Shown here piece after piece: positions 33,047 through 40,303 of a DNA stretch of 40,303 nt. Both the position numbers and the translations under genes were made by a program. The stretch spans positions 1 to 40,303 of the forward strand of contig NZ_NKXO01000032.1 in assembly GCF_002843425.1 (NCBI RefSeq), given 5' to 3'. The stretch's first letter is position 1; every line of letters starts with the position of its first letter. Source of the stretch: Raineya orbicola. Lineage in GTDB: Bacteria; Bacteroidota; Bacteroidia; Cytophagales; Thermonemataceae. Below the pieces are notes generated by a model. That model was given only the letters and a program-made list of their open reading frames with translations, did no database searches and was not told the origin of the DNA.

Positions 33047-34675
33047 CTAACTTTCTGCCATAAACGGATATTTATAGTCGGTGGGTGGGACAAAAGTTTC
33101 TTTGATAGCCCGGGCGGAAGTCCAACGCAAAAGATTAAGCATAGAACCTGCTTTGTCGTTTGTACCTGATGCTCTTGCTCCGCCAAAAGGCTGTTGTCCT
33201 ACTACTGCCCCCGTGGGCTTATCGTTGATGTAAAAGTTTCCTGCTGAATGACGCAAACGCTTGCTCGCTAAATCTATGGCGTAGCGGTCTTGGGCAAAAA
33301 TAGCACCCGTAAGAGCGTAAGGCGAAGTTTTATCTACCAACGTAAGCACATCTTCAAAATTTTCGGGCTGATAAACATATACACTCAAAACAGGTCCGAA
33401 AATTTCTTCTTGCATAGTTACATACATAGGGTCTTGTACTTGCAAAATAGTAGGCTCAATAAAAAATCCTTTGGTTTTATCATAGTTACCCCCTGCAATA
33501 ATATTTACGCCATCTTTCTTTGCTTGCTCAATGTAGCCTGTGATTTTATCAAAAGATTTTTCATCAATTACCGCATTGATAAAGCAAGTAAAATCTTCTA
33601 CACTACCCATTTTGATTTCTTTCAAATCGGCAAGCATATAGTTTTTTACTTCCTCCCAGATACTTGAAGGAATGTAAGCTCTTGAAGCCGCCGAGCATTT
33701 TTGCCCTTGATATTCAAAAGCTCCGCGAATAAGTGCTGTTGCAAGGGCTTTGGTGTCTGCGGAATGATGAGCTAAAACAAAATCTTTTCCACCTGTTTCG
33801 CCTACAATACGAGGATAAGTTTTGTAAATAGCAATGTTTTCGCCAATGGTTTTCCAAATTCTTTGGAAAGTGCTTGTTCCTCCTGTAAAATGAATACCTG
33901 CAAAATCGGGGTGAGCGAAAATAACCTCGCCTGCTGTGGGTCCATCAACAAATACCAAATTGATAACCCCATCAGGAACGCCTGCCTCTCTGAAAACCTT
34001 CATTAACACGTGAGCTGAATAAATCTGTGTTTCGGCGGGTTTCCATACCACACAATTCCCCATCATTGCAGGGGACGTAGGCAAATTGCCCGCAATAGCC
34101 GTAAAATTGAACGGCGTAAGAGCAAAAACAAAACCCTCCAAAGCACGATGCTCTACCCTATTCCAAATGCCTGCCGAAGAGATAGGTTGCTCGCGATAAA
34201 TTTGCTCCATAAATTTCACATTGAAGCGAAGGAAATCAATAATTTCGCAAGCGGAGTCAATTTCGGCTTGAAAAACATTTTTAGATTGTCCTAACATCGT
34301 AGCGGCGTTGAGTTCGTAGCGATATTTGGACGAGATAAGCTCGGCGGCTTTCAGAAAAATACTTGCCCGATGCTCCCAACTCATATTTTCCCATAATTCT
34401 TTGGCATTCAGAGCGGCACGAATGGCACGTTCTACTTCCTCTCTACCTCCTTTATGATAGTATCCTAATGTATGACTTAATTCGTGAGGTGGAGCTATAC
34501 GCTTACGATTACCAGTGCGTACCTCCTCGCCACCAATAAACATTGGAATATCTAATTCTTTACTTTTCAGTTCTTGGATTGCTTTTTTCAAAAGTTCTCT
34601 TTCTTTACTACCCGGTGCATAGCCGTACACAGGTTCGTTTTTGGGCTCGGGAATAGTGAAAATGCCGTAATTCAT
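33047..34675 (-). CDS. pruA: L-glutamate gamma-semialdehyde (1-pyrroline-5-carboxylate) dehydrogenase
   Basis: This enzyme oxidises glutamate semialdehyde to glutamate with NAD in proline and arginine breakdown. The 542-residue protein matches the single-function type, with GETGGKDF (Glu near 293), the nucleophile Cys near 326 in GQKCSAASRAY, FTGGTSTF, and EEIFGPVLSVYVY in the ALDH fold. Proline dehydrogenase is not fused and not adjacent. ATG 34675 (MNYGIFTIPEPKNEP) is the start; an in-frame ATG at 34738 lies on the promoter's -33 box. A terminator at 32945-32986 follows. Confidence 0.93.
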   Translation of the reverse strand: MNYGIFTIPEPKNEPVYGYAPGSKERELLKKAIQELKSKELDIPMFIGGEEVRTGNRKRIAPPHELSHTLGYYHKGGREEVERAIRAALNAKELWENMSWEHRASIFLKAAELISSKYRYELNAATMLGQSKNVFQAEIDSACEIIDFLRFNVKFMEQIYREQPISSAGIWNRVEHRALEGFVFALTPFNFTAIAGNLPTSPAMMGNCVVWKPAETQIYSAHVLMKVFREAGVPDGVINLVFVDGPTAGEVIFAHPDFAGIHFTGGTSTFQRIWKTIGENIAIYKTYPRIVGETGGKDFVLAHHSADTKALATALIRGAFEYQGQKCSAASRAYIPSSIWEEVKNYMLADLKEIKMGSVEDFTCFINAVIDEKSFDKITGYIEQAKKDGVNIIAGGNYDKTKGFFIEPTILQVQDPMYVTMQEEIFGPVLSVYVYQPENFEDVLTLVDKTSPYALTGAIFAQDRYAIDLASKRLRHSAGNFYINDKPTGAVVGQQPFGGARASGTNDKAGSMLNLLRWTSARAIKETFVPPTDYKYPFMAES

Positions 34676-34708
34676 ACAAAAAATTGATTTTAAGGTTGTT
34701 TCAAAATG

Positions 34709-34738
34709 TAAATTTAGCAAAAAAACTTCTACTGCCAA
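34709..34738 (-). promoter_or_regulatory. Bacteroidota-type promoter of pruA
   Basis: On the minus strand, TTG, 19 bases, then TAAATTTA (34709-34716, one mismatch to TAnnTTTG). The predicted start near 34703 gives a leader of about 28 bases and excludes the upstream ATG. Confidence 0.6.
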
Positions 34739-34775: not shown

Positions 34776-36662
34776 TTAGTACAAAATTCTAAATTTTATA
34801 GTGTTTTCAATGCGTTTGAGAGCAGTAATTACATCTTTGCTGTATTCTTTATCAATATCAGTAATTACGTAACCGATTTCTTCGTTTGTTTTGAGGTATT
34901 GCCCCAAGATATTGATTTGATGACTTGCGAGTACTTGGTTGATTTGAGCAAGAATCCCCGCAGTGTTTTTGTGTATATGCAAAAGCCTATGAGCATCTTT
35001 TTGTGCAGGCAATTGCAAATTAGGCATATTCACGCTGGCGTAAGTGCTACCTGTGTTGATATAGTCAATGAGTTTCTGCGGAACATACTCGCCAATATTT
35101 TCTTGTGCTTCTTCGGTGCTTCCACCGATATGAGGCGTGAGAATAACATTCGGTAAGCCTCGCAATTCACTGATAAATTCCTCCTCATTATTTTTAGGTT
35201 CATATGGGAATACATCTACTGCCGCACCCGCAATTTTGCCAGTTTTTAAGTTTTTTACTAATGCCTCAATATCTACAATATGCCCACGTGCCAAATTTAG
35301 AAAAATAACCCCTTCTTTCATCAAACCAAATTCTCTTTCACCTATCAGATGTGTATTTTCCTCTCTACCATCAACGTGCAAGCTCACAAAATCAGCCTCT
35401 CTTAAAAGTTCATCAAGCGAATTGCATTTGCGGGCATTACCCAAGGCAAGTTTATCTACAATATCGTAAAAATACACCTGCATACCCAAAGCCTCCGCTA
35501 CCACCGAAAGTTGCGAACCAATATTACCATAACCTACAATACCTAACTTCTTACCTCTGATTTCACGGCTATTTGTGGCGGATTTATCCCAAATTCCTTT
35601 GTGTGTAAGATTACTTTTTTCAAAAATTCTTCGGGTGAGCATAATCATTTCACCGATAGCAAGTTCTACAACGCTTCGGGTATTGCTGTAAGGAGCATTG
35701 AAAACTGCTATCCCTTTATGCATACAAGTTTTCAAGTCAATTTGATTAGTGCCAATACAAAAAGCACCAACAGCAATAAGTTTTTCGGCATTTTCTAATA
35801 CTTTGGCAGTAACGTTGGTTTTAGAACGAATGCCCAAAATAGAAACTTCTCGGATAGCTTCACAAAGTTCAGCTTCGTTGAGGGCAGTTTTGAGCAGTTC
35901 TACTTGGTAACCTTCTTTTTCAAAAATTGCTTTGGCTTTGGGGTGAACGTTCTCTAAAAGTAAGACCTTAATGCGATGTTTGGGATAAGAAACTTGCATA
36001 GGCAATTTGTGTATGAACAAAAACTCATCTAAATTAGGCAGAACATAGTCGGCTTTGGCTGTAACACTTTCTCGTTTGATATTTTCTGTGAAAGCATAAA
36101 AGCGATTGGCTAATCCTGCTTCACGCATTTGATAATCAGTATATCCATCGCCAATTACATAAACTTCACCTTCTAAATTTAAGGCTTTGAGTTGCAAGAC
36201 TTTACCTTCGTTTTGAGCAAGTAGATTACTGGTATCGTAACCAATAATATTTCCGTTTTCATCAAAGAGGAAAGAATTGGCAAAAACATTTTCAGGTTTT
36301 ATGCCATACTCGCTCACAATAGGTACAATAAATTCCCGAAATCCGCTGGAAATAATAAGGACATTATCGGCAAATTGCTTAAAAAATTGCTTGTTTCGCT
36401 CAATAGAAGGGGAAACTTTGGTTTTTAGAAAATCTATAAGCTCGCTGATATGGTTTTGGTGAGCAGAAAGCAATCTAACTCGCTCACGCAAAGCATCAGC
36501 GAAAGATATTTTACCTTCCATTCCTTCGTGAGTAATTTGCTGAATTTGAGCTATTCGTTCCTTTCCATCGGGGGTATTTTTTAGAGCTATGCGAGCCAGC
36601 TCGTCTAATCCTTCTACTTGCGTGAAGGTGCTATCAAAATCAATGATAATATAGCTTTTCAA
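34776..36662 (-). CDS. Phosphoserine phosphatase-phosphoglycerate dehydrogenase fusion
   Basis: The 628-residue protein joins two serine-pathway enzymes. Residues 1-215 form a HAD-IB phosphatase: IDFDST with Asp8 and Asp10, IISSGF near 105 and IGDGYTD near 170. This is the SerB-type set of motifs. Residues about 230-550 form a D-3-phosphoglycerate dehydrogenase: GIVGYGNIGS near 374 with its NAD Asp, NLARGHIVD with the catalytic Arg, and the catalytic His near 511 in TPHIGGSTEE. A C-terminal ACT-type segment (about 558-628) probably senses serine. It thus holds the first and last steps of serine synthesis; SerC is not in the window. The HAD substrate is inferred from motifs. Confidence 0.9.
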   Translation of the reverse strand: MKSYIIIDFDSTFTQVEGLDELARIALKNTPDGKERIAQIQQITHEGMEGKISFADALRERVRLLSAHQNHISELIDFLKTKVSPSIERNKQFFKQFADNVLIISSGFREFIVPIVSEYGIKPENVFANSFLFDENGNIIGYDTSNLLAQNEGKVLQLKALNLEGEVYVIGDGYTDYQMREAGLANRFYAFTENIKRESVTAKADYVLPNLDEFLFIHKLPMQVSYPKHRIKVLLLENVHPKAKAIFEKEGYQVELLKTALNEAELCEAIREVSILGIRSKTNVTAKVLENAEKLIAVGAFCIGTNQIDLKTCMHKGIAVFNAPYSNTRSVVELAIGEMIMLTRRIFEKSNLTHKGIWDKSATNSREIRGKKLGIVGYGNIGSQLSVVAEALGMQVYFYDIVDKLALGNARKCNSLDELLREADFVSLHVDGREENTHLIGEREFGLMKEGVIFLNLARGHIVDIEALVKNLKTGKIAGAAVDVFPYEPKNNEEEFISELRGLPNVILTPHIGGSTEEAQENIGEYVPQKLIDYINTGSTYASVNMPNLQLPAQKDAHRLLHIHKNTAGILAQINQVLASHQINILGQYLKTNEEIGYVITDIDKEYSKDVITALKRIENTIKFRILY

Positions 36663-36792: not shown

Positions 36793-37215
36793 TTACTTTG
36801 CAGGTTGGCAAAGGTCAATTACTTTGAGCATAGTTTCTTTTGCGAAATCTACGTTTACGTAATCAGTAGGTTTCCACTCTGCTCCTTTTTTAGATGATTT
36901 TTTCCAGAAATCCAAGTCCATAGCAGTAGTGAAGTTCTTTTGGAAATGTTTTACTTGGGTGTTCAACACTTCGTTCAATTCTTCTACTGATTTTACCTGA
37001 GCAACACGGATAAGAGAATCAAACCAGTTGCTTGCCAAGTTTTCTTGAGCTTCTACTGCTTCTTTAATGAAGTCAGGAGCATTGTCAAGACCTACGGTCT
37101 TTTTCACGTTAGCAAAAGCTTCTTTCAAGGTGTTTTTCACTTTTACGAGAGCTTCTTGGTTTTGCTCAGCCATTTTGTTTACAGCTTCAGTAGCCGCGTT
37201 TTTTGCAGTTGCCAT
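36793..37215 (-). CDS. Phasin-like helical protein
   Basis: The 140-residue protein is almost wholly amphipathic helix, with an Ala/Lys/Asn-rich N-terminus and NAPDFIKEAVEAQENLASNWFDSL followed by VEELNEVLNTQVKHFQKNF (each read in parts). This pattern recalls the phasin family that coats polyhydroxyalkanoate granules. No PHA synthase or related gene is in the window, so the function is inferred from composition only. Its own promoter and strong terminator, with very regular codons, suggest high expression as a single gene. It could also be a general helical structural protein. Confidence 0.55.
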   Translation of the reverse strand: MATAKNAATEAVNKMAEQNQEALVKVKNTLKEAFANVKKTVGLDNAPDFIKEAVEAQENLASNWFDSLIRVAQVKSVEELNEVLNTQVKHFQKNFTTAMDLDFWKKSSKKGAEWKPTDYVNVDFAKETMLKVIDLCQPAK

Positions 37216-37385: not shown

Positions 37386-37415
37386 AAATATTATTCGGCT
37401 TGCATAATAATATTT
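37386..37415 (-). terminator. Hairpin after the MerR gene
   Basis: AAATATTATT (37386-37395) and AATAATATTT (37406-37415) are exact 10-base arms around a 10-base loop that touch the MerR stop codon. No strong T-run follows, but the position fits a terminator. Confidence 0.45.
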
Positions 37416-38296
37416 TAAGCATTTTCCTGAATAAAATCTAACAGGTCTTCAATTTTGGCTAAAATTAAGACATTTTCAGGAGTATCCAGCCCTTGCCCTA
37501 TCACTTGGCTACCTGTAAGAATGATTTTACTTTCAGGAAAGTGTCTTGAAATTTCGTAAATATACTGCTGTATTTGCTGAAAAGAGGGTGAAGAAGTTAT
37601 CACACTGAAAAGGAATTCGGGTTTATAAATTTTGTAAGCTTCTTGCAAATCGTTCAAGGGAACGGTCTGCCCGAGATAAATAGTTCTTTGCTTTCGGCTA
37701 CGTAAAAGATAATTTGTGAAAAGGAGCGAAAGTTCGTGCCATTCGCCTTCAGGCAAAAAAAGCATATATTTTTTACCTTCGGTATAATTGGGTTTGAGGC
37801 TATCAATGGCTACAATGATTTTCTGTCGTATCAAATGAGAAATGAAATGTTCTTGAGCAGGGTTGATAGTACCTGCAAGCCACAAAATACCTATTTTTTG
37901 CAAAAAGGGGAAAATTATCCGAAGCATTGTATTTTCAAAGCCTATTTGTTTGATACTTTGAGCAAGTAGATACTCAAAGCGTTCTTCGTCCAAATCCATC
38001 ATACAGAGCGTAAAGGCTTGTATTTTATCTTGGGCATCAGTAGATTTTTCTGTAAGACGGATAAGTTCGGTACGCAATTCTTCTGCCGACATTTGGGCAA
38101 TATGCGAAATTTTATGCCCGTGCTTATTGAGTACAGAAATATTCAGAATGAGTTTAAGGTCTAAATCATCATAATAGCGAATGTTGGTGTCGGTTCGTTT
38201 GGGTTTAAGAATATCGTATCGTTGTTCCCACACACGTAGGGTATGGGCTTTAATACCTGAAAGATTTTCTACATCTTTAATAGAATAGTAGCTCAT
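37415..38296 (-). CDS. MerR family regulator with cobalamin-binding-type domain
   Basis: The 293-residue protein has an N-terminal MerR helix-turn-helix (SIKDVENLSGIKAHTLRVWEQRY, about 5-27, then RYYDDLDL). A helical domain carries Trp139 and Glu149-His150 in the W-9-EH spacing of CarH-type regulators. A C-terminal Rossmann-like domain has GEWHELS (184-190) where cobalamin binders have DxHxxG. The lower-ligand His (His187) is kept, but Asp is Glu and Gly is Ser. CarH/LitR proteins sense light or B12 and repress carotenoid genes. No carotenoid gene is adjacent, and the targets are unknown. Confidence 0.85.
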   Translation of the reverse strand: MSYYSIKDVENLSGIKAHTLRVWEQRYDILKPKRTDTNIRYYDDLDLKLILNISVLNKHGHKISHIAQMSAEELRTELIRLTEKSTDAQDKIQAFTLCMMDLDEERFEYLLAQSIKQIGFENTMLRIIFPFLQKIGILWLAGTINPAQEHFISHLIRQKIIVAIDSLKPNYTEGKKYMLFLPEGEWHELSLLFTNYLLRSRKQRTIYLGQTVPLNDLQEAYKIYKPEFLFSVITSSPSFQQIQQYIYEISRHFPESKIILTGSQVIGQGLDTPENVLILAKIEDLLDFIQENA

Positions 38297-38730: not shown

Positions 38731-39822
38731 ATGAAAAGGCATTGGGTATATTATGTTTTGCTTGCGTTTGGTGCTTTCTCTTGTGCCTCACAAGGAAGGC
38801 TCGTTTCGCAAGGTGATGAATACGACGACGTGTATTTTGTAGGAGATGATGTAAAAAAAACTGAAATTCGCCAAAATCAAAGAATTTTAGAAAATGATGG
38901 CTTAACAAGCGATGCCTACAATAGCGAATATGACCAGAAACCTATCAGTAATTTCAGCAATCCCGATGCTTTGGATTATCCTGTTACGCAAGGTGGTAGT
39001 TTGTATGTACCTATGAATAGCCGAAGTGCTAACTGGAATAATTACAACTCTTGGAATGATAATCGCTGGAATAGTTGGAATTATTGGAATAATTGCTGGA
39101 GTTGCAATAACTGGGGTGGAAACTGGAACTCTTGGAATAGTCCTTATTGGTATGGAGGTTGGAATAGCCCTTATTATTGGAACAATGGCTGGAACAATCC
39201 GTATTGGTATGGTACGGGCTGGGGCAACCCTTATTGGGGTACAGGCTGGGGAAATGGTTGGTACATAGGTTATGGTTATGGCTGGAATTCTTGGTATAGA
39301 CCTTGGGGCTGGAATAGCGGCTGGGGCAATACTTGGTCTTGGAATGATAATCGTACTCCCCAAAATATTTATGTAGGTCCGCGTGCTTCGGCGGGCAGAG
39401 GTAGCAATTTCATCAGAAACACTCCTAATCCAAGATTGCAACCTAATAACAATAATAATGATGACAACAATAATCAGGGTGGTAGAGTAATTACAGGTGG
39501 AAGAACAAGAAACTACTCATCTGATACCTATACCCCCACACAGAGCAATGAGGTTCGTACAGGTAGAGTAAAAACAGAAAGAAGTAGTATCAATTCTGAA
39601 CGTTACAACAACTCCAATTCATCAGAACGTTATAGGAATGAAGGTAATAATAGAACCTCTTGGGGTGGTAGAAGCAATTCTAATTCCAATAACTCGTCTT
39701 CTTCTTGGAGTAGTGGAAGGGAAAGAACTTCATCATCAGGTGGTTTCAGTAGTGGAAGAAGTGGAGGTTCATCAGGAGGAAGTTCTGGGGGTAGTAGAAC
39801 AGGCGGCAGAGGAGGAAGGTAA
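38731..39822 (+). CDS. Trp/Asn/Gly/Ser-rich low-complexity lipoprotein
   Basis: The 363-residue protein has a lipoprotein signal (MKRHWVYYVLLAFGAFSC, lipid Cys18) and an acidic segment DEYDDVYFVGDD. A central region (about 97-205) is built almost wholly from Trp, Asn, Gly, Tyr, Ser and Pro, with runs such as GWNNPYWYGTGWGNPYWG. A polar stretch with NNNNNDDNNN comes next, and the Ser/Gly/Arg-rich tail ends RTGGRGGR. It should sit on the outer membrane facing out or into the periplasm. Similar Bacteroidota proteins are annotated as hypothetical. The aromatic density suggests adhesion, self-assembly or carbohydrate contact, but this is a guess. The IS630 transposase ends 25 bases after its stop. 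Confidence 0.8.
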   Translation: MKRHWVYYVLLAFGAFSCASQGRLVSQGDEYDDVYFVGDDVKKTEIRQNQRILENDGLTSDAYNSEYDQKPISNFSNPDALDYPVTQGGSLYVPMNSRSANWNNYNSWNDNRWNSWNYWNNCWSCNNWGGNWNSWNSPYWYGGWNSPYYWNNGWNNPYWYGTGWGNPYWGTGWGNGWYIGYGYGWNSWYRPWGWNSGWGNTWSWNDNRTPQNIYVGPRASAGRGSNFIRNTPNPRLQPNNNNNDDNNNQGGRVITGGRTRNYSSDTYTPTQSNEVRTGRVKTERSSINSERYNNSNSSERYRNEGNNRTSWGGRSNSNSNNSSSSWSSGRERTSSSGGFSSGRSGGSSGGSSGGSRTGGRGGR

Positions 39823-39847: not shown

Positions 39848-40303
39848 TTATACGAAACCTACTTTCAGGTGTTTAAAGAAGTTAGCAATTTTTTTTGTAG
39901 CTTGTTGAAGTACTTGAAAAGCATTTTGAAGTTTAGTTTTGAGTTGAGTTAAGTTTTTACAGACAACATTTTTAAGCATATCACATTTGAGGGTTTTCCA
40001 GACCTGTTCATCTGCGTTCAATTCAGGGGAATAGGGGGGAATTTTAGCCAGATAAATAGTTTCATTCTTGTCTTTTCGTAAAAAATCTTTCACCTCTTTG
40101 CTGGAATGAATACGTGCCCCATCCCAAATGATGAGTAATTTTTGCTTCAAAGTGTCAAGTAATTTTTTGAGAAAATCTACCACATCTTTGCCCTTGAAAC
40201 TACTTTCTTGTATTTGATACACCAAATCACCCGCAGGACTAATGGCACTGATGGCAGAAAGGTGTTGATAACGACAGCCTTCCCGAAGCACAGGGCTATG
40301 TCC
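39848..40303 (-). CDS. IS630-type transposase, C-terminal part (partial at right edge)
   Basis: The frame enters from the right edge (GHSPVLREGCRY...) and stops at 39848. It carries the second catalytic Asp in LLIIWDGARIHSS and the third acidic residue in PPYSPELNADEQVWKTLK, the DDE core of IS630/Tc1-mariner transposases. The first Asp and the N-terminal helix-turn-helix would lie beyond the window. A GTG at 40291 is an internal codon, not a start. The visible part is not disrupted. The terminal repeat and the TA target duplication expected of IS630 elements should fall between 39823 and 39847 but could not be fixed from one end. Confidence 0.88.
   Translation of the reverse strand, partial: GHSPVLREGCRYQHLSAISAISPAGDLVYQIQESSFKGKDVVDFLKKLLDTLKQKLLIIWDGARIHSSKEVKDFLRKDKNETIYLAKIPPYSPELNADEQVWKTLKCDMLKNVVCKNLTQLKTKLQNAFQVLQQATKKIANFFKHLKVGFV

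Follow-up and report, generated by a model that had tools for sequence, protein, structure and literature searches.

The window, by which we mean the whole stretch of 40,303 nucleotides that was analysed (contig NZ_NKXO01000032.1 of Raineya orbicola, assembly GCF_002843425.1), carries on its minus strand a single gene in which a phosphoserine-phosphatase-type domain of the HAD-IB family is followed in frame by a phosphoglycerate dehydrogenase (PGDH) with a C-terminal ACT domain (Table 1). Read on the plus strand the same positions contain many stops, and the minus strand forms one intact frame of 628 codons. The TTG start stands at the same place in a relative of the same genus (G001), and an ATG occupies this position in L051, a relative with a deleted dehydrogenase. 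Pfam and NCBIfam models place the HAD-IB match at residues 4-181, the PGDH match at 222-628 and the ACT match at 560-623. An AlphaFold model of the whole fusion reached a mean pLDDT of 91.2 and a pTM of 0.80. The original prediction, which gave no strand, had described a complete HAD-IB motif set followed in frame by a complete PGDH with an ACT-type tail. Both descriptions were borne out: the motifs DFDST (residues 8-12), ISSG (104-107) and GDGYTD (171-176) are present, and the dehydrogenase half of the open frame scores 663.1 bits with NF008759, far above the equivalog cut-off of 404.

Table 1. Features of the fused gene and of its surroundings in the window
Feature	Position	Strand	Remarks
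Fused serB-serA gene	34776..36662	-	628 codons, TTG start, stop 34776-34778
HAD-IB phosphoserine-phosphatase-type domain	35997..36662	-	residues 1-222
PGDH substrate-binding domain, N-terminal part	35661..35975	-	residues 230-334, bounds approximate
PGDH nucleotide-binding domain	35118..35660	-	residues 335-515, bounds approximate; GxGxxG 377-382; R459, E488, H511
PGDH substrate-binding domain, C-terminal part	35007..35117	-	residues 516-552, bounds approximate
ACT domain	34779..34997	-	residues 556-628; serine-ligand positions H564, N566, N584
P5C dehydrogenase	33047-34738		
Short phasin-like protein	36793-37215	-	below cut-off; conserved in G001
MerR-type regulator with B12-binding domain	37415-38296	-	CarH-like, below CarH cut-off
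Low-complexity protein, rich in N/W/G/Y and S/G	38731-39822	+	by eye
Transposase-like frame	39848-40303	-	by eye; runs off the window end

The phasin-like protein lies between the regulator and the fusion. The low-complexity protein is accompanied by a long antisense frame, which is probably due to the composition of the protein. A functional link of the fusion with the P5C dehydrogenase was considered and rejected; in relatives the P5C dehydrogenase was found near the fusion only in one record (L206/L087), and the arrangement was taken to be lineage-local.

The dehydrogenase half closely resembles E. coli SerA (1psd/1yba), with which it shares the domains, the catalytic positions and the serine ligands of the ACT domain (49% identity over 401 residues, Z 47.5 and rmsd 2.3 with 1psd). 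The catalytic residues of a type II PGDH, R459, E488 and H511, are present together with the Rossmann glycines, and the single C-terminal ACT domain carries the His, Asn and Asn that characterize type II enzymes. These residues, H564, N566 and N584, are kept in every ACT-bearing protein of our residue table and align with His344, Asn346 and Asn364 of the E. coli enzyme, which bind serine (PMC6300728). The protein differs from E. coli SerA by its N-terminal phosphatase and by the Gly-Gly hinge, which is part of the E. coli serine response (PMC6300728) and no criterion of type II status: the hinge is missing from the alignment, and Asp-Ala is found in its place. Hence an E. coli-like inhibition by serine is not to be presumed.

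For the phosphatase half, the HAD-IB model TIGR01488 gave 69.5 bits (cut-off 45). The SerB equivalog model TIGR00338 gave 75.3 bits, or 78.8 with the domain alone, against a cut-off of 144.15, so that the HAD half is not filed under that SerB equivalog. Among 48 aligned proteins D8, D10, T12, S105, K154, D172 and D176 are invariant, which covers HAD motifs I to IV; alignment with human PSPH identifies S105 as the motif II serine, and residue 106 varies freely. Equally invariant are E17 and R61, whose counterparts in human PSPH are Glu and Arg, at the phosphoserine phosphatase (PSP) positions that hold the amino and carboxyl groups of the substrate. M48 and F54 are variable among relatives. In the residue table (98 rows besides that of the window) the sole row with a HAD N-terminus to depart at E17 is G137, with Asp there, a long branch in the fusion tree. 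The best PDB sequence match of the HAD half in a phmmer search was the PSP-like structure 3kd3 (1.1e-28), and human PSPH (1nnl, 1.8e-19), M. jannaschii PSP (5.2e-13) and 6iuy from Dunaliella salina (3.4e-10) were matched as well. A structure search with the whole fusion returned dehydrogenases throughout and was uninformative for this half; the HAD fold was therefore read from the model of L056, a relative with a deleted dehydrogenase (pLDDT 80.8, pTM 0.61). Its first 225 residues superimpose on human PSPH 6hyy (Z 23.7, rmsd 2.4, 209 residues) and its HAD domain on 1nnl (Z 23.2, rmsd 2.0, 195 residues). The catalytic motifs and the substrate-residue positions are those of human PSPH (1nnl) and M. 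jannaschii PSP (1f5s), and the domain differs from both by its score below the TIGR00338 cut-off and by being joined to a dehydrogenase. Taken jointly, the two assignments, a predicted PSP type for the HAD half and a predicted catalytic PGDH for the other, are very probably correct.

The score below the SerB equivalog cut-off also speaks for a rival reading, in which the HAD half has some other phosphoester as its main substrate (such as histidinol phosphate or a sugar phosphate) and an unrecognised enzyme hydrolyses phosphoserine. In keeping with such a reading, some genes annotated as PSP have been proposed to encode histidinol phosphatases (PMC5764234), and other types of serB exist, one of them in the histidine phosphatase superfamily, that are invisible to HAD searches (PMC9026213). 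The invariance of the Glu and Arg positions of PSP substrate type in all 48 proteins argues against it, as does the gene content of the genome. A separate intact serB, together with a fusion that is inactive on phosphoserine, had been named in advance as the finding that would speak against the claim. Profile searches with TIGR01488 and PF12710 among the HAD-type genes of this genome, which is 99.76% complete, detected no second serB-like HAD above cut-off. The only other HAD-IB protein above cut-off (C49:9079-9627) was rejected as serB because it is a TIGR01490 protein; its neighbour gene is UbiA-like by eye. A match on contig C7, below cut-off and with the look of a P-type ATPase by eye, was likewise rejected, and two weak PF12710 matches on contig C25 (20.1 and 12.1 bits) fall below the cut-off.

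With regard to the other steps of the pathway, the genome encodes a 2-hydroxyacid dehydrogenase of 314 aa (C1:39776-40708) that is without an ACT domain, is 29% identical and scores under the cut-off in all 25 families listed out of 41; judged by its sequence, it could have some PGDH activity. PF00266 matched 14 times, most strongly on contig C26, and three of the matches (contigs C43, C16 and C4) were scanned with curated models. The C43 protein resembles NifS-type desulfurases and the C16 protein is a kynureninase, and both were rejected as serC. The C4 protein (L043:1318-2418) is a divergent serC candidate that matches several serC models, in all cases below their cut-offs, and automatic annotation might miss this SerC type. 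Echinicola vietnamensis is another member of the order to which the window belongs. A diverged SerC has been reported for this species with GapMind, and the accessible part of that report gives no SerB gap for it (PMC7311316).

The distribution of the fusion was followed in three samples. In the order sample, 59 genomes including that of the window, 45 carry the full-length fusion and a further one (G003) has the two halves at contig ends. Four genomes (G014, G023, G032 and G047) encode adjacent separate serB and serA genes, and in G025 both genes are present on different contigs. An ACT-bearing SerA for which the HAD partner was not found occurs in G018 (88% complete). Neither the fusion nor its parts were detected in seven genomes (G008, G009, G020, G029, G039, G044 and G058); at the thresholds used, G008 and G020 are without the fusion and also without a short SerA. 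In the class sample, a HAD match at 1e-8 was obtained in 39 of 149 genomes. Among these 39, 27 have a frame of at least 600 aa, 24 of which were checked to reach the ACT domain and three (G172, G196 and G198) were assigned by frame length only. The others comprise parts on two contig ends (G167), an adjacent pair (G110), four canonical SerB proteins and six deleted forms (G095, G132, G161, G189, G071 and G111). In the phylum sample a match at 1e-15 was found in 24 of 247 genomes. Twenty named loci bear titles that include Hymenobacter, Dyadobacter, a Bernardetiaceae MAG, a Raineya sp. MAG and a KSB1 MAG. The last of these, labelled candidate division KSB1, contains a full fusion (L103) that is 63% identical to that of the window and reflects either a transfer or a binning error. 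A fused gene is also present in G383 (L272, family f72), a genome from the genus of G118 and G150, both of which have canonical SerB; in the tree the fused gene groups with the order member G056 (support 93), which suggests horizontal transfer, an uncertain reading given the long branch.

The occurrence of adjacent separate genes in four genomes invites the suspicion that an assembly error or a frameshift has artificially merged two neighbouring genes. The same join is shared by 45 of the 59 order genomes and recurs in named records of Hymenobacter and Dyadobacter, which refutes an artefact in practice and makes it exceedingly improbable.

Genomes with the fusion were also checked for a separate canonical serB. 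The TIGR00338 cut-off was not exceeded in any of the 59 order genomes, and the six of 149 class genomes in which it was exceeded have neither the fusion nor a deletion form. One genome with the fusion, G017, contains an additional SerB-like ORF that scores 101.7 bits, below the TIGR00338 cut-off. In 12 of the 44 order relatives with fetched flanks, a homologue of the divergent SerC (SerC_div) is encoded on the strand of the fusion, no more than 1.9 kb downstream of it; with the window, which has no SerC-type gene beside its fusion, the count is 12 of 45. Two Dyadobacter records (L090 and L106) likewise have this type after the fusion, and in G014, G032 and G047 it comes after the unfused serB-serA pair. 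Hence the enzyme of the middle step, which appeared to be missing from the arrangement, is often encoded by the neighbouring gene. This adjacency, together with the joining of the HAD domain to a SerA with ACT domain, further disfavours another phosphoester as the main substrate, a reading that we consider improbable. The claim that a SerB-type phosphatase is fused to SerA thus stands, on the motifs, the substrate-residue positions and the lack of a second serB-like HAD above cut-off in the genome, with additional support from the serC-type neighbours and the unfused serB-serA pairs. The assignment as a bifunctional SerB-SerA, predicted from these comparisons, is a strong one.

Another 12 genomes have a fused dehydrogenase that is deleted or has lost catalytic residues, and in these the phosphatase residues and the ACT ligand residues are kept. 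The deleted forms belong to families f59 (G095, G132, G161, G189, G322 and G395) and f35 (G071 and G111). In these proteins the HAD domain is followed by a reduced substrate-binding domain and this directly by the ACT domain; the missing stretch, from about residue 330 to 524 (f59) or 325 to 529 (f35) in the numbering of the window protein, is essentially the nucleotide-binding domain. G111 has, in addition, a frame break within its HAD part. In agreement with this layout, the L056 model after residue 225 matches the PGDH substrate-binding domain (Ser33, 8q2i; Z 19.8, rmsd 1.7, 129 residues). In the decayed forms (G171, G426, G427 and G097) the domain and its aligned glycines remain, and R459 and H511 are replaced. 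The serine-ligand side chains are intact in each of the 11 dead or deleted proteins that were aligned over their full length, and also in the C-terminal fragment available for G111.

Sequence identities between pairs of proteins were compared at similar HAD identity; G111 was left out, G034 and G080 (see below) were counted as intact, and the same sequence recurs in different pairs, which are not independent. At a HAD identity of.70-.86, intact pairs (26) had identities of.79 in the substrate domain and.80 in ACT, and dead pairs (15).43 and.70. At.45-.55 the values were.64 and.62 for intact pairs (1604) and.27 and.59 for dead-intact pairs (605), and dead pairs at.40-.55 (25) gave.21 and.55. 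After loss of the dehydrogenase the remnant drifts, and the ACT domain is somewhat looser than in intact proteins and far from drifting.

All 12 genomes with such losses contain a separate SerA-like frame (1e-45 or better) of about 320-345 aa, a length that implies the absence of an ACT domain; in G111 it is a fragment of 229 aa. PGDHs without ACT are described as free of serine regulation (PMC6300728). In G095, G132, G161 and G189 the short SerA adjoins a SerC-like frame, called by its similarity to the SerC of this genome (1e-7 to 1e-14). The search for short SerA covered 80 of 106 listed genomes, 32 of them order genomes. At 1e-45 none was detected in the 23 searched order genomes with a full fusion; G009, where the fusion is absent, is the only searched order genome that has one. 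The order member G034 carries R459T and R329Q and had no short SerA at 1e-45, so that catalytic loss does not strictly depend on a backup. R459G is found in G080, and in both G034 and G080 the substrate domain is loosened with respect to a near relative (.55 and.50).

Short SerA was present in the genomes of all 11 dead or deleted proteins and of 20 of the 47 intact ones, G034 and G080, which are without R459, being entered as intact (Fisher p 0.0004). A tree-aware count found two independent pairs on starred branches (four on all branches) and a sign test p of 1; the association is thus not significant once relatedness is considered. The presence of short SerA may permit loss of the dehydrogenase without compelling it, as indicated by its occurrence in 20 of the 47 genomes with an intact fusion. 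The best trees require four or three changes for the losses, and the starred branches force only one. In a constraint test on a tree of 58 of 83 rows (seven mostly long-branch rows dropped and 18 thinned), with groups that were named after an earlier tree had been seen, a single clade of all 11 dead rows was rejected (p-AU 0.014). A clade of f59 with G071 gave p-AU 0.044, and f59 with the decayed forms and G071 was not rejected (0.094). A branch with support 86 separates family f59 and the decayed G171, G426 and G427 from the other rows, and the losses in this group may represent one event. G111, with its broken frame, and the split proteins were excluded from both loss trees. For split versus fused genes, unrooted and weak trees gave three changes (HAD) and four (SerA), of which the starred branches force two and one.

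A bifunctional SerB-SerA with the ACT domain as a common sensor of the end product is, as a whole, the best explanation of these comparisons and in our judgement likely. The C-terminal type II PGDH would convert 3-phosphoglycerate to phosphohydroxypyruvate, the separate divergent SerC candidate on contig C4 would form phosphoserine from it, and the N-terminal HAD-IB domain would release serine, which the ACT domain at the other end of the same protein would bind. That this domain holds back both activities, the phosphatase included, is a rather probable part of the proposal. The evidence is indirect: where the dehydrogenase has been lost, the phosphatase and the ACT ligands were kept, which points to an ACT domain that serves the phosphatase too. 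The simplest reading is that it works for the phosphatase, either by sensing serine or by holding an oligomer together. Retention of ACT could reflect dimerisation instead of sensing; the conserved serine-ligand residues favour sensing.

The fusion might also set no more than stoichiometry or co-expression of two active enzymes, with an ACT domain that controls the dehydrogenase alone and elsewhere acts as an oligomerisation module. ACT domains form one of the two subunit interfaces of E. coli PGDH (PMC6300728), and the adjacent separate proteins of four of the 59 order genomes demonstrate that the covalent linkage is dispensable. What the proteins with a dead or deleted dehydrogenase (11, plus the G111 fragment) have retained, however, goes beyond the fold to the ligand side chains themselves, and in mycobacterial SerB2 a PSP does respond to serine through ACT domains: serine bound there leads to an inactive phosphatase oligomer (PMC4270767). 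We therefore view control of the dehydrogenase alone as possible and on balance doubtful. SerB2 likewise ties a PSP to serine-binding ACT domains (ACT-ACT-PSP; PMC4270767). It has two of them at the N-terminus, whereas the protein described here has a single one, derived from SerA, at the C-terminus, and the dehydrogenase or what is left of it separates this domain from the PSP.

If one ACT serine sensor throttles both ends of the pathway, the losses in relatives could be arranged in a sequence. Next to an ACT-less SerA that stands beside another SerC, the fused dehydrogenase would become redundant, decay, and finally have its nucleotide-binding domain excised. The outcome would be a serine-gated phosphatase with a regulatory domain inherited from SerA; what was once an enzyme would now serve its partner as tether and sensor, and the pathway would be controlled at its last step instead of its first. 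For the shared sensor and this scenario taken together, we see the arguments for and against as evenly balanced.

Fusions of related design are known. The algal PSP-GPDH proteins (Dunaliella salina 6iuy, Chlamydomonas) also combine an N-terminal PSP-type HAD with a C-terminal NAD dehydrogenase (PMC7468427, PMC3633914). Their dehydrogenase acts on glycerol-3-phosphate, and the two domains catalyse consecutive steps with glycerol as the product (PMC7468427, PMC3633914), whereas the C-terminal part of the protein described here is a PGDH-type 2-hydroxyacid dehydrogenase, which places it outside the PSP-GPDH type. In oomycetes a PGDH-phosphoserine aminotransferase fusion unites two serine-pathway enzymes in one protein, joining steps 1 and 2 (PMC2705460), where the present fusion joins steps 1 and 3. 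The two enzyme halves themselves are ordinary, and fusions of serine-pathway enzymes were already known. No description of a SerB-SerA fusion was found in the literature searched, which mostly did not extend to subscription papers. What appears to be new is the pairing of the first with the last step, its breadth within one order and a decay that leaves a phosphatase equipped with an ACT domain from SerA.

Since no canonical serB exceeds the cut-off in the order (0 of 59 genomes), the fusion would explain where its serB function resides. Judged from the profile scores, annotation by the single best hit would probably name such proteins phosphoglycerate dehydrogenase only. The natural series of intact, decayed, deleted and split forms represents a ready-made experiment on what the ACT domain regulates, and it makes testable whether fusion and decay can shift end-product control from one pathway enzyme to another.
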